From an uncultured Erysipelotrichaceae bacterium (lineage in GTDB: Bacteria; Bacillota_I; Bacilli_A; Erysipelotrichales; Erysipelotrichaceae), in assembly GCA_902782955.1 (NCBI GenBank), contig CACZPD010000239.1, positions 1-6,101 of the forward strand: a stretch of 6,101 nucleotides of DNA. Direction: 5' to 3'. The notes under the pieces were generated by a model. It had not been told where the DNA came from, did not search any database, and saw only the letters and a program-made list of their open reading frames with translations. Made by a program: the position numbers and the translations under genes. The stretch's first letter is position 1; each line of letters begins with the position of its first letter. Below are positions 1 through 6,101 of the stretch, piece by piece.

Positions 1-3000
1 ACCGCAGACCATTTTCCGTAAATAGTCTTTCCTTTTACGATCCGGAATGCCTGAACTCGGACGAAGTACTTCTTCTTGCTCTTCAGCTTCCTAAAAGTCA
101 GACCTTTGCTCGGGTATTTCCTGACTTTCTTAGTTTTCCGGGCCTTCTTGAACTTCTTATCACGCGCGATCTGCACCCGGTAACCCGTGGCATTTTTGAC
201 TTTCTTCCATTTGACGGTCAAGGCCTTCTTCGAAGGCTTCACCTTCTTGATCTTCGCCCGGGCCGGAGCTTTCACAGTACTCTGCTTAGTTTGAGGCTTT
301 ACCGCCGGACCATCAGGCTGATTCTCTGTCTGGTCCCCCGGCTTCTCTTCAGAAGCGGACTCGACAGGGTCTTTGTCCTCCGCAGAAACCCAAAGGTTCA
401 TCAACGATTCATCCGTCCCCAGCTGTGGGAAAGAACTGCCGCCAAGGTGCTCCCAATCCGCCACCTCATACCTGTAATCATTGACATAATGCCAGATGAT
501 CTCGTCGCCATCTGCCAGTTTCGTATCTTTCATTCCATCTGTATGCTCGCCATTCAGCGTATACATCCAGCCGGAATACGGGCCGTTCGTCATTTCACTG
601 AGTCTGTAGCCGCCCAGCGCTTTCGGCGCGACGATCGTTGATACATAGTTTGCGGAGGCACCTACAGCTTCCAGACCGGCCTGATCTAAGGCTTTGCAAA
701 ACACGTCATATACGGTGGATCCATAAGGAACCTCGTATTCCCGGGTCGCATACCAGGTCTGATATTCCGTGTCCATCTGCCCCTGGCTGAGGTCTACGCC
801 GGTTTTCGACACAGTCGACCCGACCAGCCTGAATGAAACTATAATGTCAGGCACATCGACCAGGTCTTCCCTCTCAGTGTTTTCTGTCAAAGTCACTTTA
901 CCGGCATGATCTGCGGCAAATTCAGTACTATACCCGGTATAGGTCTTCCCCTCTTCATCGCTGAACCCAAGGAAATGCCAACTGACTTCATTTGTATCTT
1001 CCCATACCGGCTCCGGGAACGGAATCTCCCCGTTTTCGTCTGCCTGGTGCACAAGGGTATCTTCGTCATAGTAGCAGACCATTTCTTTGCGCTCCGGCTT
1101 GAGATAGGTGCCTTGGCTCTTTAACAAAACCTCACTCACACCGCGCCCCTCAGGCTGCGAGCTCTGGTTGATCCGGAAATAATAGATCAGCGGAGCCTTC
1201 TTCCCTTCCTGAACAATGACCCGAACGATTCCGTGATCCGCTTTCTCCAGAAATGCCGTATTGCTCCGAAGGCTGTTGATGTACACATTGGCATTTTTCA
1301 TCGCGTTGACCCTAATGTCGAAGATTCCTTCCACATCCGCATCCAGCATCTCGAAAGGTCTGAGATCTTTACCGCTAATTTTCCGTCCATCAATCTCGAT
1401 GGAGGAAGGTGCGGTCGTCGTTCCGACGTGCTTCTCATCTGGCGCTGCTCTACGGACCATGTTCACTTCTGTGGACTTCTCTCCGATCGCACCTCCATCG
1501 ATCATCGTTGCGGTCGCGATCTTGATATAATGAATCCCATTCGTAAGCTCGACGGGATTTCCGTCATCATCCACTGCCCAGGCTAGATCAAAACCGTCCA
1601 CGCGGCCGCTCTCTCCCCAGGTCTTCAGCCCGGCATACGGATTAGAAGCCTGGTTGGTGGTGTCACGCAGCCCACAGTCTGCATAGCCGAAGGCGGGATA
1701 GGTTGGGATGGTATTTCCGTACTCGTTGGATTCAGCTTGCGGTGTGATCCTGTCTGTAGTAAGTGTAATACGGTCTTTTTCTGCAGTTTCCCATTGGTAT
1801 AGTGGGTAAATAGATGCTCTGGGAAATCGAATCGCAGAACTAAGTTCCTCTTCATCGCCGACCTGAACGAGTGTAGTCTCGTTCTCCCCCTTACGGTAGA
1901 TGACCTTTTGATTCCAGTGAACAACGTCGTCATAGTGGATTGATCCTGCCAGTTTATACCAGGTCTTCCCATCCTCGCTGACAGAGACATTTCCCGGTTC
2001 GGCGAAACTGCTGTTCCCGCTGACTGCATTTCCGTTTATGATAAATTCAATTCCATAAGGATTTGCAGGATCATCCCAGATTGCGTCTTCATAATAGTAA
2101 GTGATATACCCTCCTAGATTCCCTATCGAGGGAGGACTCGTATAAAGATCGGCGCCTGCTGCATCGAAGTTTCCACCTCTCAAAGATCCTACTGCTCGGT
2201 ACATATTTCCGTACGGAACATTCGCAGGCGTTCCATTGTTGGTATATTGTGAAAATGGGCAGATATAGTCAACGACTTTGTCCGGCATACCAGAATACTG
2301 CGCCTTATAACAAACGACACTGTAAGAGCGAATCGCAGTCTCATTGATCCGAAGCTCGATTATGTGTGTATCTCCTTCATTCGACGCAGAAAGTGCCGAT
2401 TCCCATTGCGTCAAGTCCATATCAGCAACTTTGTTCCCGTCAATATATACGTCACAAGGACCTTCTTTTTCAAAGGAGAATAGCGGTTCTATCTCCGAAT
2501 ATGGCACGACGAGCCTACCGCAGCTTTCTGCGCCATACAGATCCTTCTGATTCATCCACTGTCCATCACCAAGGAGGGCACAAGAAGTGATTGCACAGGG
2601 TAATTTGCCTTCTTTCCGAAAAACAAGATGAACTACAGATGGATAAAAAGCCTCATCATTTGGATAAAGATAACTATAGATAGAAACTTCTCCATATCCT
2701 TCTCTTAATCGTACTTTTTTTGTTCCATTTGCAATGTTTCCATGTTTTGTATCCGTCATGGCGCTTGAGTATCCCAGTATACCGCCCCATACCTGCGCAA
2801 CCCGCGAATACTCTTCTAGAGTCTTATCAAGGATCAACGGAGCTTTTGATGGATCCACTGTTGTAGTCCGAAAAGAAAGGTTAAAGCGACAGTCATCTCC
2901 CGTGTCATCAGATAGCAACACCTCTATTTCCTTTTCCCTTTCTTTCGAAGACGTCTCTTGAAAGCTCTTAACATCAACTCCTTCGATCAGAATAGAATCG

Positions 3001-3149
3001 ACAGAATATGTGTTACCCCCAAATGTATAGCTGGCATCAATCGGAATATTGAAGCTTTCGCCTGTCTTTGCAAAGGTGATATTTGCAGCCAGCAGGATGC
3101 TGGCTGCAATCGCAATGCTGATGAAACATATTTTATTCACTATCCTCAT
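1..3149 (-). CDS. Large exported surface protein with DUF4430 (transcobalamin-like) and Lys-rich FN3-like domains, 3' end outside window
   Basis: An uninterrupted minus-strand frame of 1049 codons starts at ATG 3149; its stop lies beyond base 1. AAAGGG sits 8 nt before the ATG and overlaps the end of the upstream gene. Residues 1-27 are a signal peptide (MRIVNK, hydrophobic core, ITFA cleavage) with no lipobox. About 288-568 resembles a cell-surface beta-sandwich family of Bacillota and Bacteroidota, with PDKVVDY, NPYGIEFIINGNA, SEDGKTWYKLAGS, DGFDLAWAVDDDGNPV and EKSTEV. About 765-893 is DUF4430 (PF14478), the transcobalamin/intrinsic-factor C-terminal-like fold, with PYGSTVYDVF, GWMYTLNG (860-867) and DGDEIIWHY. 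A Pro/Glu/Gln-rich linker leads to a Lys-rich FN3-like module from about 963 (LTVKWKKVKNATGYRVQI). Residues 28-287 and 570-764 are unassigned, probably beta-rich. Likely role: extracellular corrinoid binding as last gene of a B12-controlled operon, which is inference. The anchoring mode is not visible because the C-terminus is cut. Confidence 0.9.
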   Translation of the reverse strand, partial: MRIVNKICFISIAIAASILLAANITFAKTGESFNIPIDASYTFGGNTYSVDSILIEGVDVKSFQETSSKEREKEIEVLLSDDTGDDCRFNLSFRTTTVDPSKAPLILDKTLEEYSRVAQVWGGILGYSSAMTDTKHGNIANGTKKVRLREGYGEVSIYSYLYPNDEAFYPSVVHLVFRKEGKLPCAITSCALLGDGQWMNQKDLYGAESCGRLVVPYSEIEPLFSFEKEGPCDVYIDGNKVADMDLTQWESALSASNEGDTHIIELRINETAIRSYSVVCYKAQYSGMPDKVVDYICPFSQYTNNGTPANVPYGNMYRAVGSLRGGNFDAAGADLYTSPPSIGNLGGYITYYYEDAIWDDPANPYGIEFIINGNAVSGNSSFAEPGNVSVSEDGKTWYKLAGSIHYDDVVHWNQKVIYRKGENETTLVQVGDEEELSSAIRFPRASIYPLYQWETAEKDRITLTTDRITPQAESNEYGNTIPTYPAFGYADCGLRDTTNQASNPYAGLKTWGESGRVDGFDLAWAVDDDGNPVELTNGIHYIKIATATMIDGGAIGEKSTEVNMVRRAAPDEKHVGTTTAPSSIEIDGRKISGKDLRPFEMLDADVEGIFDIRVNAMKNANVYINSLRSNTAFLEKADHGIVRVIVQEGKKAPLIYYFRINQSSQPEGRGVSEVLLKSQGTYLKPERKEMVCYYDEDTLVHQADENGEIPFPEPVWEDTNEVSWHFLGFSDEEGKTYTGYSTEFAADHAGKVTLTENTEREDLVDVPDIIVSFRLVGSTVSKTGVDLSQGQMDTEYQTWYATREYEVPYGSTVYDVFCKALDQAGLEAVGASANYVSTIVAPKALGGYRLSEMTNGPYSGWMYTLNGEHTDGMKDTKLADGDEIIWHYVNDYRYEVADWEHLGGSSFPQLGTDESLMNLWVSAEDKDPVESASEEKPGDQTENQPDGPAVKPQTKQSTVKAPARAKIKKVKPSKKALTVKWKKVKNATGYRVQIARDKKFKKARKTKKVRKYPSKGLTFRKLKSKKKYFVRVQAFRIVKGKTIYGKWSA

Positions 3150-3164
3150 TAATCATACCCTTTA

Positions 3165-4526
3165 TTAATCGATTGTGACCCAGAACATTGGCCGAACATA
3201 ATGCTTTTCTGAAGACACAACTAATCCTGGTAGCGCCTTATCCTTGTTCGATCCCTTAAGTTGAAGATGCCAAATCTGGCTGCTTTCTAGCTCCTCTCCA
3301 TTATATTCGTTCACACCTTCCCTTAACCACCACTCTAATGCTTCTGTAAGTATGCTTCTATAAATCTTCTTGTTCTCAGCTGTGATTTGAAGTTGAACGG
3401 GATCAATTGAACTGTTTTTCAACACAGTATTAGCTGCCCCGTATCTTAGCAGATCATACTCCAATCTAGACGGAACGAATACTTTATCATTAGTACTACT
3501 AACTTCCTCAACCATATCCTCGATTTCGCCATTTATGTCGCGTTTAATTATGCCCGAAGGTATAGCTGTCTCAACGGCGAGTTTAGAAATTGTCGGATTA
3601 TCTTTCAGATACTGACCATTTAAGAAACTTCGTATATCACTGTCTCTCCAGAGGATACTTCCGTTTTCAGAAAACGCCATTTCTTCTCCATAGCAGTCTT
3701 TTGCAAAAAGAAGAGCCTTGTTTATCGTTTGATCTGTATCTTCATTAATTTCTGTTTCTTTGGTAAGAACATTAAACGCCTGACCATCGATCTCAACAGT
3801 ATTCGTAGAACCCGCTTCAATATTGCGTATTTCTTCCCTAACAGATTCAAGAAGCGCCTGTTCTTCTTCAAACTTTTGGATTGTCGTACGATACTGTTCG
3901 ACCAGTTCCTTTGTGTCTCCAGAAACCAACGCCTTTTGGTCATCCGTCAATGCATCATATACATCGACCAGCTCTTTTGCTGCAGCAATCGCTTCTGCTG
4001 ATGCATCTTCAGGGAGCGTTTCATGGCCATTCATCTTTTCAACGAACGAGTCCGCAGCAGCCTTATCCTCTTTTGCTTTTTTTACTGCCGGATCTTCCTG
4101 CTCAGCTGGGGTTTCCTCTTCTGTCTTTTTCTCATCGCCTGCTTTCTTTGGCTTAGCTTTAGTTGTAATCTTCTTTATGGCAGAGAATTTCCCTTTCTTC
4201 TTGCCTTTAATCGCACGAACTTTGAATGCGTATTTGGTGCTATACTTTCCCTTGAATGACAAAGACGTCTTTTTTACAGTCTTATATTTCTTGAACTTCT
4301 TTGCTTTACCAATTTTGACAAATACTTCGTATTTTTTCGCCTTTTTCACTTTAGACCATTTGACGGTGATATTATTATACTTTTTCACCGACACTTTCAG
4401 CCTTTTGACCTTAGCTGGTTTGGATGCTGCATACGACATTCCGTTTAGCATTGGCATAAACCCGAAGCACATCACGATTGCCAATAGCGTAATAAATACT
4501 CTTTTTACAGTTGATTTAGTAACCAT
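3165..4526 (-). CDS. Exported protein with Lys-rich FN3-like module and DUF6273-like domain
   Basis: Encodes 453 aa. AAGGAGG lies about 4 nt upstream of ATG 4526, in the 14-bp gap after the preceding gene. Residues 1-34 are a signal peptide ending SYA. Residues 36-127 form an FN3-like module (NITVKWSKVKKAKKYEVFV, YAFKVRAIKG) that is more than one-third lysine with almost no acidic residues, so strongly basic. An acidic linker (128-150) and a helical stretch (about 151-235, with YDALTDDQKALV, a small repeat unit common in clostridial surface proteins) follow. The C-terminus (about 243-453) matches DUF6273-like domains: IDGQAFNVL, ILWRDSDIRSFLN, STNDKVFVPSRLEYD, EWWLREG and the ending YVRPMFWV. 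DUF6273 has no established biochemical role. The FN3 module is also found in the downstream protein, so the two may sit on the same wall polymer. A role in corrinoid capture is inferred only from operon membership. Confidence 0.9.
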   Translation of the reverse strand: MVTKSTVKRVFITLLAIVMCFGFMPMLNGMSYAASKPAKVKRLKVSVKKYNNITVKWSKVKKAKKYEVFVKIGKAKKFKKYKTVKKTSLSFKGKYSTKYAFKVRAIKGKKKGKFSAIKKITTKAKPKKAGDEKKTEEETPAEQEDPAVKKAKEDKAAADSFVEKMNGHETLPEDASAEAIAAAKELVDVYDALTDDQKALVSGDTKELVEQYRTTIQKFEEEQALLESVREEIRNIEAGSTNTVEIDGQAFNVLTKETEINEDTDQTINKALLFAKDCYGEEMAFSENGSILWRDSDIRSFLNGQYLKDNPTISKLAVETAIPSGIIKRDINGEIEDMVEEVSSTNDKVFVPSRLEYDLLRYGAANTVLKNSSIDPVQLQITAENKKIYRSILTEALEWWLREGVNEYNGEELESSQIWHLQLKGSNKDKALPGLVVSSEKHYVRPMFWVTID

Positions 4527-4540
4527 TTCCCCTCCTTATT

Positions 4541-5491
4541 TCATTTCGTAAATGAAAGCATCGCAGAAGTATTGTTGATTAGTTTGTAGCCACTTACCCC
4601 GCTGTTTTTGTAGTGAACAATATTGTTCAGCGGAATTAAATGGATATAATAATCTCCGCTTGCCAAACTGGAAATGTTAATTTCTCCTTCTCCTAAATCA
4701 TCAATGGAAACAGTCCCTGCTTTTACTGCGGTACCACTATTACTTGGATAAATGACATAGGAATAGCTTGTCTCATAGAGATCAACGAGGTCAAAATCTT
4801 CAATAGTCCAGTATCCACTGTTTTCGAAATATGACTTGGACCAATACAGTTCTATATACACCTTACTGCCGGAAACTGATGCTTCGCCCGCCTGATAATT
4901 ACAACTGAATAACTCCGATGTGTTTTTATGGAAAGGATAGTCCCAGAAGAAATGGATTACATCCCCATCTTCTATCGGTGTTGTTGCAACGCTGGTTCCG
5001 AGAGGTCCATTAGCAGCTAATGGACTAGTAAATGTTTCAAGTGGAAACTGTCCATTGATTCTAAACTTCCATCCATCAAGTTTAGTTGATGCATTTGCTG
5101 GCAAAGCCGGTGCGTACTCATGACCGTTCAAAGTGATCGATCTGATGTAGTCATCACTGGCATCAAAAGTGTTTCCATTAATATCTGTCATTGGAATACT
5201 ATTCACGTCCGAGAGTGTCAACATTGCATCACGAACACTATATCCGCTCTGCCCATCTTTCAGGGGAGATACCGATACGTGATAAGCTCCTGCATAGTTA
5301 TAACCACTTTCCAATTTACTCTCTAAAACAATCTTTACTGTAATGCTTCCTGAAGTTTCACTTCCCAAGGATCCTGCTAAATACGCTCCCGGATCTTCAT
5401 ACGTTACCGCGAACGCCACCCCCGACATCGCAATTGTCATAATGGCTACCGCCATCGCGACTAAGAGACTTTTGATTACATGCTTTTTCAT
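4541..5491 (-). CDS. Small exported DUF4430-like (transcobalamin C-terminal-like) protein
   Basis: Encodes 316 aa. The frame is open up to 5545, but the ATG at 5491 is preferred: AGGAGG (5506-5501) lies 9 nt upstream and MKKHVIK is a typical signal-peptide start. The ATG at 5497 is only 3 nt from that site and upstream starts lack one. Residues 1-28 are a signal peptide (SGVAFA cleavage) without a lipobox cysteine. About 48-186 has the DUF4430 pattern: GYSVRDAMLTL, then GWKFRINGQFPLE (140-152), then IEDGDVIHFFWDYP (173-186), matching the GW-x-Y-x-V-NG and DGDVI elements of the family. About 200-316 is a second beta-rich domain I cannot name. First gene of the operon behind the cobalamin riboswitch, so expected to be made when B12 is scarce. 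The DUF4430 call is by eye, weaker than in the third gene. Corrinoid binding is inference. Confidence 0.88.
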   Translation of the reverse strand: MKKHVIKSLLVAMAVAIMTIAMSGVAFAVTYEDPGAYLAGSLGSETSGSITVKIVLESKLESGYNYAGAYHVSVSPLKDGQSGYSVRDAMLTLSDVNSIPMTDINGNTFDASDDYIRSITLNGHEYAPALPANASTKLDGWKFRINGQFPLETFTSPLAANGPLGTSVATTPIEDGDVIHFFWDYPFHKNTSELFSCNYQAGEASVSGSKVYIELYWSKSYFENSGYWTIEDFDLVDLYETSYSYVIYPSNSGTAVKAGTVSIDDLGEGEINISSLASGDYYIHLIPLNNIVHYKNSGVSGYKLINNTSAMLSFTK

Positions 5492-5497
5492 ATTCAT

Positions 5498-5582
5498 TTT
5501 CCTCCTTCTAACATGTATTGCGCTTGACTGAAACCGCAGGAGCAACGGATTACTGCAAAGTCAAATCAGATCCGCCACCCCG
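5498..5582 (-). other. Leader spacer between terminator and first gene, with imperfect hairpin
   Basis: Untranslated leader linking the terminator to the first gene. TTGACT (5564-5559) can pair with AGTCAA (5529-5524), and inside it GCAG (5556-5553) with CTGC (5539-5536), giving an interrupted hairpin ahead of the ribosome binding site at 5506-5501. It is not followed by a T run, so it is not a terminator. It may be an mRNA stabiliser or chance. No small ORF with a ribosome binding site is evident. Confidence 0.3.
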
Positions 5583-5630
5583 AAAAAACAAAATGCCTGC
5601 CGGCCACAGCCTTTAAGACTGCGGCGGGCA
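5583..5630 (-). terminator. Intrinsic terminator of the cobalamin riboswitch
   Basis: Minus-strand RNA TGCCCGCCGCAGT (5630-5618) pairs over 13 positions, with one C-C mismatch and two G-T wobbles, with GCTGTGGCCGGCA (5610-5598). The loop is short, and a TTTTGTTTTTT tract (5593-5583) follows. This GC-rich stem and T run is a textbook rho-independent terminator. It lies between the riboswitch and the first gene, so it is the expression platform rather than the end of another gene. Its first three stem bases overlap the antiterminator helix. Confidence 0.9.
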
Positions 5631-5652
5631 GACACCAATCCTCTGTGTCTGC
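5628..5652 (-). promoter_or_regulatory. Antiterminator helix
   Basis: GCAGACAC (5652-5645) is perfectly complementary to GTGTCTGC (5635-5628), with a 9-nt loop. The 5' half overlaps the riboswitch P1 3' strand (AGCAG, 5653-5649) and the 3' half overlaps the terminator stem (5630-5628). The helix is therefore mutually exclusive with both. Without ligand it should form and allow read-through; with cobalamin, P1 forms and the terminator follows. The pairing is seen; the switching logic is inferred from known riboswitches. Confidence 0.75.
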
Positions 5653-5766
5653 TGTCTCTTGGCTGGGCTGGCTGGCTACGGCATGCGCCGATCACAGTGG
5701 AGGAAAGTCCGCCCCGGAATCTGACCGGGTACTCATTTATGCAGGATTCTGCAACCAAGAAAGCAG
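5649..5766 (-). promoter_or_regulatory. Cobalamin (B12) riboswitch, compact type, controlling the secreted-protein operon
   Basis: Minus-strand core elements follow the cobalamin riboswitch order. P1 comprises CTGCT (5766-5762) with AGCAG (5653-5649) and TCTTGGTT (5760-5753) with AGCCAAGA (5664-5657). P5 is CCCGG (5729-5725) with CCGGG (5717-5713) around the loop TCAGATT, where the consensus is GGTGAAAATCC; the usual G after GGT is C here. Then come GGGGCGGAC, TCCACTGTGA (5701-5692, consensus CCACTGTGA) and AGCCAAGAGACAGCAG (5664-5649, consensus AGCCAGGAGACCTGCC). The peripheral arm is reduced to a 4-bp hairpin CGGC-GCAT-GCCG (5690-5679), which suggests a compact class II aptamer favouring methyl- or aquocobalamin; the class is inference. 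With the downstream terminator it should switch the operon off when B12 is plentiful. Confidence 0.87.
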
Positions 5767-5786
5767 GTATTTGTTTTTCTGTCAAA

Positions 5787-5815
5787 ATTATAGCAAAACT
5801 ATCCATCCAAGTCAA
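5787..5815 (-). promoter_or_regulatory. Sigma-A promoter of the secreted-protein operon
   Basis: TTGACT (-35, 5815-5810), a 17-bp spacer and a perfect TATAAT (-10, 5792-5787) on the minus strand. Predicted transcription start is near A5780, about 14 nt before the riboswitch P1, leaving the complete aptamer in the transcript. Confidence 0.85.
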
Positions 5816-5842: not shown

Positions 5843-5872
5843 TTGACAAGAACTTGTCCTGTAAGCTACAAT
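5843..5872 (+). promoter_or_regulatory. Sigma-A promoter of the right-hand riboswitch transcript
   Basis: Perfect TTGACA (-35, 5843-5848), 18-bp spacer and TACAAT (-10, 5867-5872) on the plus strand. Predicted start is near 5879, about 20 nt before P1 of the right-hand riboswitch. Its -35 lies 27 bp from the -35 of the divergent minus-strand promoter, so the two polymerase sites are close enough to interfere. Confidence 0.78.
5845..5858. repeat. Short inverted repeat over the right-hand -35 box, possible operator
   Basis: GACAAG (5845-5850), 2-nt spacer, CTTGTC (5853-5858). The dyad overlaps the plus-strand -35 element and sits between the two divergent promoters. A repressor site is possible, but the dyad is short and could be chance. 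Confidence 0.35.
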
Positions 5873-5897
5873 ATAAGCACCAAAATAGCATAAGTTA

Positions 5898-6010
5898 TGT
5901 CTGTGGTTGATGTATTATGCTGCGTAATAGGAAATTCGGTGAGAATCCGGAGCTGTCTTATCTTAACCGTGTGCAGCAGGTGCTGCGAGCCGGAATATCC
6001 CCCACAGATA
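5898..6010 (+). promoter_or_regulatory. Second cobalamin (B12) riboswitch, compact type, divergent
   Basis: Plus-strand elements in cobalamin-riboswitch order. P1 is TGTCTGTGG (5898-5906) with CCACAGATA (6002-6010), 9 bp with one wobble, and GGTT follows at 5905-5908. Next are TAATAGGAAA (5925-5934) and P5 (5935-5939 with 5947-5951) around TGAGAAT, giving GGTGAGAATCC, a close match to consensus GGTGAAAATCC. GAGCTGTC, then AACCGTG in place of AACTGTA, follow. A 5-bp hairpin GCAGC-AGGT-GCTGC (5973-5986) replaces the large peripheral arms. AGCCGGAATATCC (5988-6000) corresponds to the AGCCAGGAGACC box. The short peripheral arm suggests class II; ligand form is not determinable. It should repress the gene starting near 6076 when cobalamin is present. 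Confidence 0.87.
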
Positions 6011-6014
6011 GGTT

Positions 6015-6037
6015 CAGATATCGAGATGGAATATCTG
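6015..6037 (+). promoter_or_regulatory. Linker hairpin after the right-hand riboswitch
   Basis: CAGATAT (6015-6021) pairs perfectly with ATATCTG (6031-6037) around a 9-nt loop. The same 3' strand can instead pair with ACAGATA (6004-6010), which is part of the aptamer P1, so the two states exclude each other. A T-poor tail (TCGGTTTTG) follows, making it a weak terminator at best. Confidence 0.5.
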
Positions 6038-6045
6038 TCGGTTTT

Positions 6046-6068
6046 GTCTCCAGCCAGCTAAAGGAGGC
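6046..6068 (+). promoter_or_regulatory. Hairpin able to sequester the ribosome binding site
   Basis: GTCTCC (6046-6051) is perfectly complementary to GGAGGC (6063-6068) with an 11-nt loop. It covers the whole AAAGGAGG ribosome binding site of the gene starting near 6076. This is the arrangement of translation-level cobalamin riboswitches. The pairing is seen; the ligand dependence is inferred. Confidence 0.6.
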
Positions 6069-6075
6069 TTATTTG

Positions 6076-6101
6076 ATGATGCTTGATCAGATAAGCGCAG
6101 G
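6076..6101 (+). CDS. Start of a B12-regulated gene, product unknown (only 8 codons in window)
   Basis: AAAGGAGG (6060-6067) is followed 8 nt later by ATG 6076, reading MMLDQISA before the window ends. In-frame TTG 6073 and ATG 6079 are alternative starts. Eight residues are too few to assign a family. Position directly behind a cobalamin riboswitch suggests corrinoid synthesis, salvage or uptake, or a B12-independent isozyme, which is inference from what such riboswitches usually control. Confidence 0.6.

Follow-up and report, generated by a model that had tools for sequence, protein, structure and literature searches.

A riboswitch-like leader and a protein joining BtuH-like and transcobalamin-type domains suggest corrinoid capture outside a Gram-positive cell

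What do three exported proteins accomplish when their genes stand in a row behind an element that resembles a cobalamin riboswitch? The question is raised by contig CACZPD010000239.1 of an uncultured Erysipelotrichaceae bacterium (GCA_902782955.1), of which we analyzed a stretch of 6,101 nt, called the window here. Open reading frames (ORFs) A, B and C are consecutive on its minus strand, with intergenic distances of 14 and 15 bases (Table 1). Each encodes a hydrophobic N-terminal signal sequence and none contains a lipobox, as an earlier reading of the sequence (the original prediction) had stated; an LPxTG-like motif or end is likewise absent from all three. We consider it probable that this locus is a B12-repressed operon for corrinoid capture outside the Gram-positive cell. 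A corrinoid ligand, regulation by B12 and an extracellular location had all been proposed, and they are supported by the riboswitch, the transcobalamin fold and BtuH-like fold of ORF C, an association of DUF4430 genes with riboswitches across genomes, and CbrT-type importers beside two relatives. The strongest evidence for B12 is the BtuH-like domain of ORF C, which the original prediction had overlooked. Papers given by PMC number are cited from excerpts.

ORF C is cut by the window end; its database copy has 1056 residues. Pfam and NCBIfam scans yield no match in residues 286-640, and the BtuH-like domain is detected by profile comparison, which establishes homology to the C-terminal B12-binding domain of the BtuH family. 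The closest known proteins are BtuH2 (BT_1956) and the C-terminal domain of BtuG1 (BT_1490) of Bacteroides thetaiotaomicron (PDB 7BIZ, 8BLW; PMC8941943). Gln301 and Asn374 of ORF C correspond to BtuH2 Gln333 and Asn399, nucleotide-loop contacts to the ribose and phosphate, respectively; BtuH2 residue numbers are chain position plus 100, an offset that fits the letters at all eight listed contacts. In an alignment of 161 rows, the relatives with a residue at these positions have Gln in 152 of 152 cases and Asn in 155 of 156. Many of the rows are near-duplicates, and thinning to 54 rows leaves Gln in 51/51 and Asn in 52/53.

The second domain of interest in ORF C matches DUF4430 (PF14478; residues 810-889) with 31.4 bits, above the Pfam cut-off of 23.8, and has the beta-domain fold of transcobalamin and intrinsic factor, the animal B12 carriers. 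Judged from the matches to either half, the fusion of the two domains is not a quirk: 41 of the 120 DUF4430-region matches listed (350 in total) also contain a BtuH-like domain, N-terminal in 41/41, a count that takes in the copy from the window itself and three of the profile's rows. Conversely, DUF4430 is found in 5 of the 120 BtuH-like matches listed (559 in total), in a search limited to shorter proteins. One match to the DUF4430 region, P0098, has a source name that assigns it to Candidatus Bathyarchaeota as a DUF4430 protein; relatives of the domain are thus present in archaeal records too. The step from fold to corrinoid binding is one that we infer, and the domain content of ORF C makes it a likely B12 trap. 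We also entertain the doubtful idea that the two domains act as jaws closing on the same corrinoid, with the BtuH-like domain in place of the transcobalamin toroid. If true, ORF C would represent a two-domain B12 carrier of new architecture, and the animal B12-carrier fold would belong to a wide capture system that Gram-positive bacteria keep under riboswitch control.

The leader of the operon has the layout of the usual B12-off switch. A promoter-like site is followed by an aptamer that matches Rfam family RF00174 over model positions 1-189 (25.9 bits, E 0.0013), and then by a strong intrinsic terminator and a candidate antiterminator. The 5' arm of the antiterminator has four bases in common with the closing stem of the aptamer and its 3' arm eight with the first arm of the terminator; perfect 8-bp hairpins arise in 95 of 20000 mononucleotide shuffles. 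Folds of the whole leader with the antiterminator forced and without it are nearly equal in energy (-80.0 versus -80.7 kcal/mol), and the inner ten terminator pairs persist in the forced fold. A simple terminator scan does not list the hairpin at 5583-5635. With this layout, the leader would switch in a B12-dependent manner. A second RF00174 match (5887-6020), also missed by the original prediction, lies on the plus strand. Both leaders have the expression platform expected of the family: a promoter-like site with terminator and antiterminator on the minus strand, and a Shine-Dalgarno sequence that is paired in the model on the plus strand.

Alternatively, the two RF00174 matches could have arisen by chance or mark decayed elements, leaving the operon without regulation by B12. 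Both matches (25.9 and 26.9 bits) indeed fall below the gathering cut-off of 31.5 bits, and promoter-like sites are few in the region but within chance in number (2 observed versus 1.2 expected in shuffles). However, the E-values (0.0013 and 0.00067) cover both strands of the window and already account for the 4227 families searched. The two elements face apart, each just 3' of its own promoter-like site, and downstream of the minus-strand element lie a terminator and an alternative hairpin. Moreover, riboswitches above the cut-off accompany relatives at loci L001 (65 bits) and L002 (38.5 bits, at 7725-7877). We regard the chance explanation as very improbable. The cobalamin riboswitch that had been predicted to head the operon is upheld as a divergent, riboswitch-like element by its family match, promoter-like site and alternative hairpins, and it falls short in score.

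The original prediction had called for a survey of DUF4430 genes for upstream cobalamin riboswitches, and the survey supports such a link. We merged DUF4430 matches (E up to 0.001) on one strand into clusters when they lay within 3 kb, and left out seed genomes G009 and G002 because these had been reached through homology. Expected counts are for random placement, which assumes even genomes and rounded sizes; in the class-wide sample, riboswitches were counted with stricter filters, at which weak ones are lost. In a class-wide sample of 40 genomes, 20 genomes hold 35 clusters, and a cobalamin riboswitch lies on the same strand within 10 kb upstream of 17 of them (13 genomes; 0.19 expected). 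Two clusters have a riboswitch downstream and one has a riboswitch on the opposite strand. An order-wide sample of 24 genomes yields 26 clusters in 14 genomes, with a riboswitch upstream of 13 (8 genomes; 0.14 expected) and none downstream or opposite. Taken from the other side, a DUF4430 gene lies no more than 10 kb downstream of 18 of the 62 class-sample riboswitches. The 16 genomes of homologues do not form an unbiased sample; of their 71 clusters, 31 have a riboswitch at most 10 kb upstream, 11 have one downstream and 0 have one on the opposite strand.

As a control family, Big_2 (PF02368) has a riboswitch within 10 kb upstream of 4 of its 78 clusters in the class sample (0.23 expected), counted from rows picked by hand, about one per ORF, among the matches listed. 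Of the four, two lie in the same ORF as a DUF4430 match (one of these matches just under the cut-off), and the ORF of a third adjoins a DUF4430 gene. Since three of the four positives are tied to DUF4430 genes, Big_2 is not a clean negative, and cleaner controls are provided by the counts downstream and on the opposite strand. The BtuH-like domain itself is found, seeds included, in 6 of 299 genomes of a phylum-wide sample and in 4 of 41 of the class sample, too few for a separate riboswitch statistic. These samples suggest that DUF4430 is a marker of B12 in Clostridia.

A scan with ORF C returned 19 related loci, seven of which contain cobalamin riboswitches above the cut-off (L001, L002, L006, L007, L008, L014 and L017). 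The L002 riboswitch lies 0.5 kb ahead of relatives of ORF A (8370-9350) and ORF C (9437-13270). Upstream of it are two further riboswitches and a cassette encoding a toroid-SLH protein (its toroid match below cut-off), a DUF4430 protein, a CbiQ-type EcfT and a fused ATPase-ATPase-S protein. At L009 (2095-17349), six consecutive genes on the same strand encode a BtuH-like protein, a giant DUF4430 protein, a toroid-SLH protein, a DUF4430 protein, EcfT and a fused ATPase-ATPase-CbrT-like S protein, a candidate for a complete capture-and-import operon. The S parts of L002 and L009 match CbrT, the B12-specific S component of PDB 6FNP (E 1.4e-11 and 6e-9). At L008, BtuR, CbiM, CbiN and CbiZ stand ahead of a DUF4430-SLH protein. 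The genome of L008 (G008) also has, at about 5,455,500-5,526,300 of contig C1, a remarkable B12 island: some 71 kb in which one strand carries all nine DUF4430 matches of the genome (E up to 0.001) together with 10 of the 15 matches to the cobalamin riboswitch. The 2.9-Mb genome of L001 (G001) has 26 cobalamin-riboswitch and 13 DUF4430 matches.

The importers of L002 and L009 bear on a different explanation, namely that B12 is hoarded or hidden to deprive competitors, or is used by an extracellular corrinoid-dependent enzyme, and is not imported. A Pfam scan finds no transporter in the window, and transcobalamin-like domains are fused to extracellular sulfite-oxidase-like enzymes elsewhere (PMC1796856). 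Yet these two relatives have an importer in the same gene cluster, repression by B12 suits supply better than hoarding, and no enzyme family scores above cut-off in ORFs A, B or C in the Pfam scan. We consider hoarding or enzymatic use quite unlikely.

Several observations count against B12 capture by this operon, beyond the low RF00174 scores and the missing transporter. The BtuH2 corrin contacts His476, Tyr510, Trp511 and Trp577 align with Pro443, Asn479, Thr480 and Ala554 of ORF C (the profile alignment around 510/511 is uncertain), and they are kept in 0, 7, 0 and 0 of the 161 rows, respectively; Phe401, beside the lower ligand, is Val376. We call the domain BtuH-like rather than BtuH because the corrin contacts differ, and if it binds, the corrin side of the pocket must be different or lost. 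Here an alternative deserves mention in which the operon is B12-responsive but its surface proteins serve adhesion or the binding of mucin or polysaccharide, the domains being general ligand-binding scaffolds that bind no corrinoid. We judge this unlikely. Searching the PDB sequences with a DUF4430 profile of 12 rows retrieves no transcobalamin at E up to 10, and the link between the two families accordingly depends on the fold and on Burroughs et al., 2007 (PMC1796856). ORFs A, B and C give no Prenyltrans or SQHop match, the sign of a toroid; such matches, most of them below cut-off, occur in other proteins of the related loci.

The survey has its own exceptions. In either sample, roughly every second DUF4430 cluster lacks a riboswitch in the 10 kb upstream, and at least seven of the clusters lacking one begin less than 1 kb from a contig start. 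Among six further genomes with a BtuH-like domain, seed G009 included, a riboswitch lies within 10 kb upstream on the same contig in G062 and G071, and none does in G009, G041, G186 and G319. L003, L005 and L009 lack an Rfam riboswitch at E up to 0.05, which leaves the fused gene of L003 and the cassette of L009 with no Rfam match nearby. Two of the three proteins had been predicted to be DUF4430-like and to resemble transcobalamin. This holds for ORF C in both domain match and fold; the match of ORF A has 15.4 bits (E 0.026), less than the Pfam cut-off of 23.8, and a profile-profile (hhalign) probability of 44.6%, and its structure, predicted from two sequences with a mean predicted local distance difference test score (pLDDT) of 40, was not used further.

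B12 capture by this operon could proceed as follows. With B12 bound, the closing stem of the aptamer would hold the antiterminator bases, the full terminator would form and the operon would be off. When B12 is scarce, the antiterminator would disrupt the terminator in its lower half, and export of the proteins would follow. ORF C may be retained at the wall by its polycationic fn3 tail and may bind cobamides, the BtuH-like domain through the nucleotide loop and the DUF4430 domain either as another binding site or as a lid. It could then pass them to an ECF-CbrT importer (ECF, energy-coupling factor), which is encoded beside these genes in two relatives and would here have to lie outside the window.

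The kind of system proposed here is already known or predicted, and the general idea is accordingly not new. Burroughs et al., 2007 named a clade of transcobalamin-like SLBB proteins and predicted B12 scavenging for its secreted members in low-GC Gram-positive bacteria (PMC1796856). Like the proteins of the window, they are secreted and often come two per operon. The same work reports fusions to toroids, paired genes and CbiO/CbiQ-like neighbors. Such neighbors are parts of ECF-type importers, and the contrast with ECF routes drawn in the original prediction therefore fails. The clade was named before the BtuH-type domain, described only in 2022, and the word "riboswitch" is absent from the text of PMC1796856. 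BtuH2 and BtuG1 are Gram-negative surface proteins that work alongside BtuB, whereas ORF C is a secreted Gram-positive protein in which the corresponding domain shares the chain with one of transcobalamin type and differs in its corrin contacts; neither DUF4430 nor transcobalamin occurs in the text of PMC8941943. Unlike transcobalamin and intrinsic factor, ORF C has a BtuH-like domain, and the window proteins have no alpha/alpha toroid. The L002 and L009 importers resemble the ECF-CbrT B12 transporter (PMC5997447) in their S components and differ in two respects: two ATPase domains are joined to the S component, and surface DUF4430 proteins are encoded ahead of it. DUF4465 proteins (BtuJ; PMC13398666) are likewise exported, beta-rich, B12-binding and found in B12-riboswitch loci, but they form a different family, with no match in the window.

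Among open-access titles and abstract openings, we found no description of a BtuH-DUF4430 fusion or of a DUF4430-riboswitch link; the fusion and the measured link have thus not been found in print. In the excerpts of PMC4350170, DUF4430 is used for fish proteins only, and a paper on corrinoid starvation in Dehalobacter (PMC4285132) contains neither surface- or hypothetical-protein terms nor transcobalamin in its text. B12 capture at the surface of Gram-positive anaerobes is little known, while Bacteroides has characterized B12-binding surface proteins. A single riboswitch-headed protein that joins Bacteroides-type and animal-type B12 folds invites direct and cheap tests. The genome samples give a statistical basis to the 2007 prediction of B12 scavenging (PMC1796856), and the findings bear on the proposal, made in the same paper, that animals acquired their B12 carriers from Gram-positive bacteria.

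Table 1. Features of the window (forward-strand positions; aa, amino acids).
Feature	Positions	Strand	Details	Basis
Sigma-70-like promoter	5787..5815	-	TTGACT-17-TATAAT, extended -10, 11/12	Consensus match only
Divergent cobalamin-riboswitch-like aptamer (RF00174)	5633..5774	-	142 nt, 12 nt past -10 box	Rfam
Candidate antiterminator hairpin	5628..5652	-	GCAGACAC/GUGUCUGC, perfect 8 bp	-11.5 kcal/mol
Intrinsic terminator hairpin	5583..5635	-	Followed by UUUUGUUUUUU (U-run)	-32.5 kcal/mol for piece 5635-5580
ORF A, secreted protein	4541..5497	-	318 aa (316 aa from next ATG); AAGGAGG ahead of start	
Weak DUF4430-like stretch of ORF A	5042..5185	-	Residues 105-152	Pfam and profile-profile comparison
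ORF B, secreted protein	3165..4526	-	453 aa; Lys-rich fn3-like domain and DUF6273	
ORF C, large secreted protein	3..3149	-	At least 1049 aa, open at window edge	
BtuH-like domain of ORF C	1443..2306	-	Residues about 282-569	Profile homology
DUF4430 domain of ORF C, transcobalamin beta-domain fold	477..863	-	Residues about 763-891	Pfam and fold
Polycationic fn3-like tail of ORF C, possible wall-binding part	42..266	-	Residues 962-1036	fn3 24.2 bits, just under cut-off 25
Promoter-like site	5843..5872	+	TTGACA-18-TACAAT, 11/12	Consensus match
Second divergent cobalamin-riboswitch-like aptamer	5887..6020	+	Model positions 1-189	RF00174 26.9 bits, E 0.00067
Hairpin pairing the Shine-Dalgarno sequence	6046..6068	+	GUCUCC/GGAGGC, ahead of ATG at 6076	Minimum-energy model

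The two smaller proteins of the operon are less distinctive. A search with ORF A at E up to 0.001 returns its own database copy only, and its one clear relative in the related loci is L002:8370-9347 (27% identical; phmmer E 1.7e-7 against a small local set). It is possible that ORF A is a second DUF4430 protein, and its place in the operon would perhaps make it a small DUF4430 partner of ORF C. A comparison of ORF A with the PDB gave a single match, to a lytic polysaccharide monooxygenase, which we rejected as being at chance level (E 0.4). In ORF B, DUF6273 scores 43.9 bits (Pfam cut-off 23.5) and fn3 19.2 bits, under its cut-off of 25. In a search of a small local set, its Lys-rich fn3-like domain shows distant similarity (E 0.047) to the tail of ORF C, which has a net charge of +38 over the final 100 residues of the 1056-residue copy. 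Pfam assigns no function to DUF6273, for which a location in a B12 operon is a possible hint; any role of ORF B in capture would be read from operon position alone.

The plus strand carries another transcription unit, divergent from the operon, whose leader fold is overall no better than those of shuffles (z -0.79). The gene behind it starts at about 6076, and the window contains its first few codons only.

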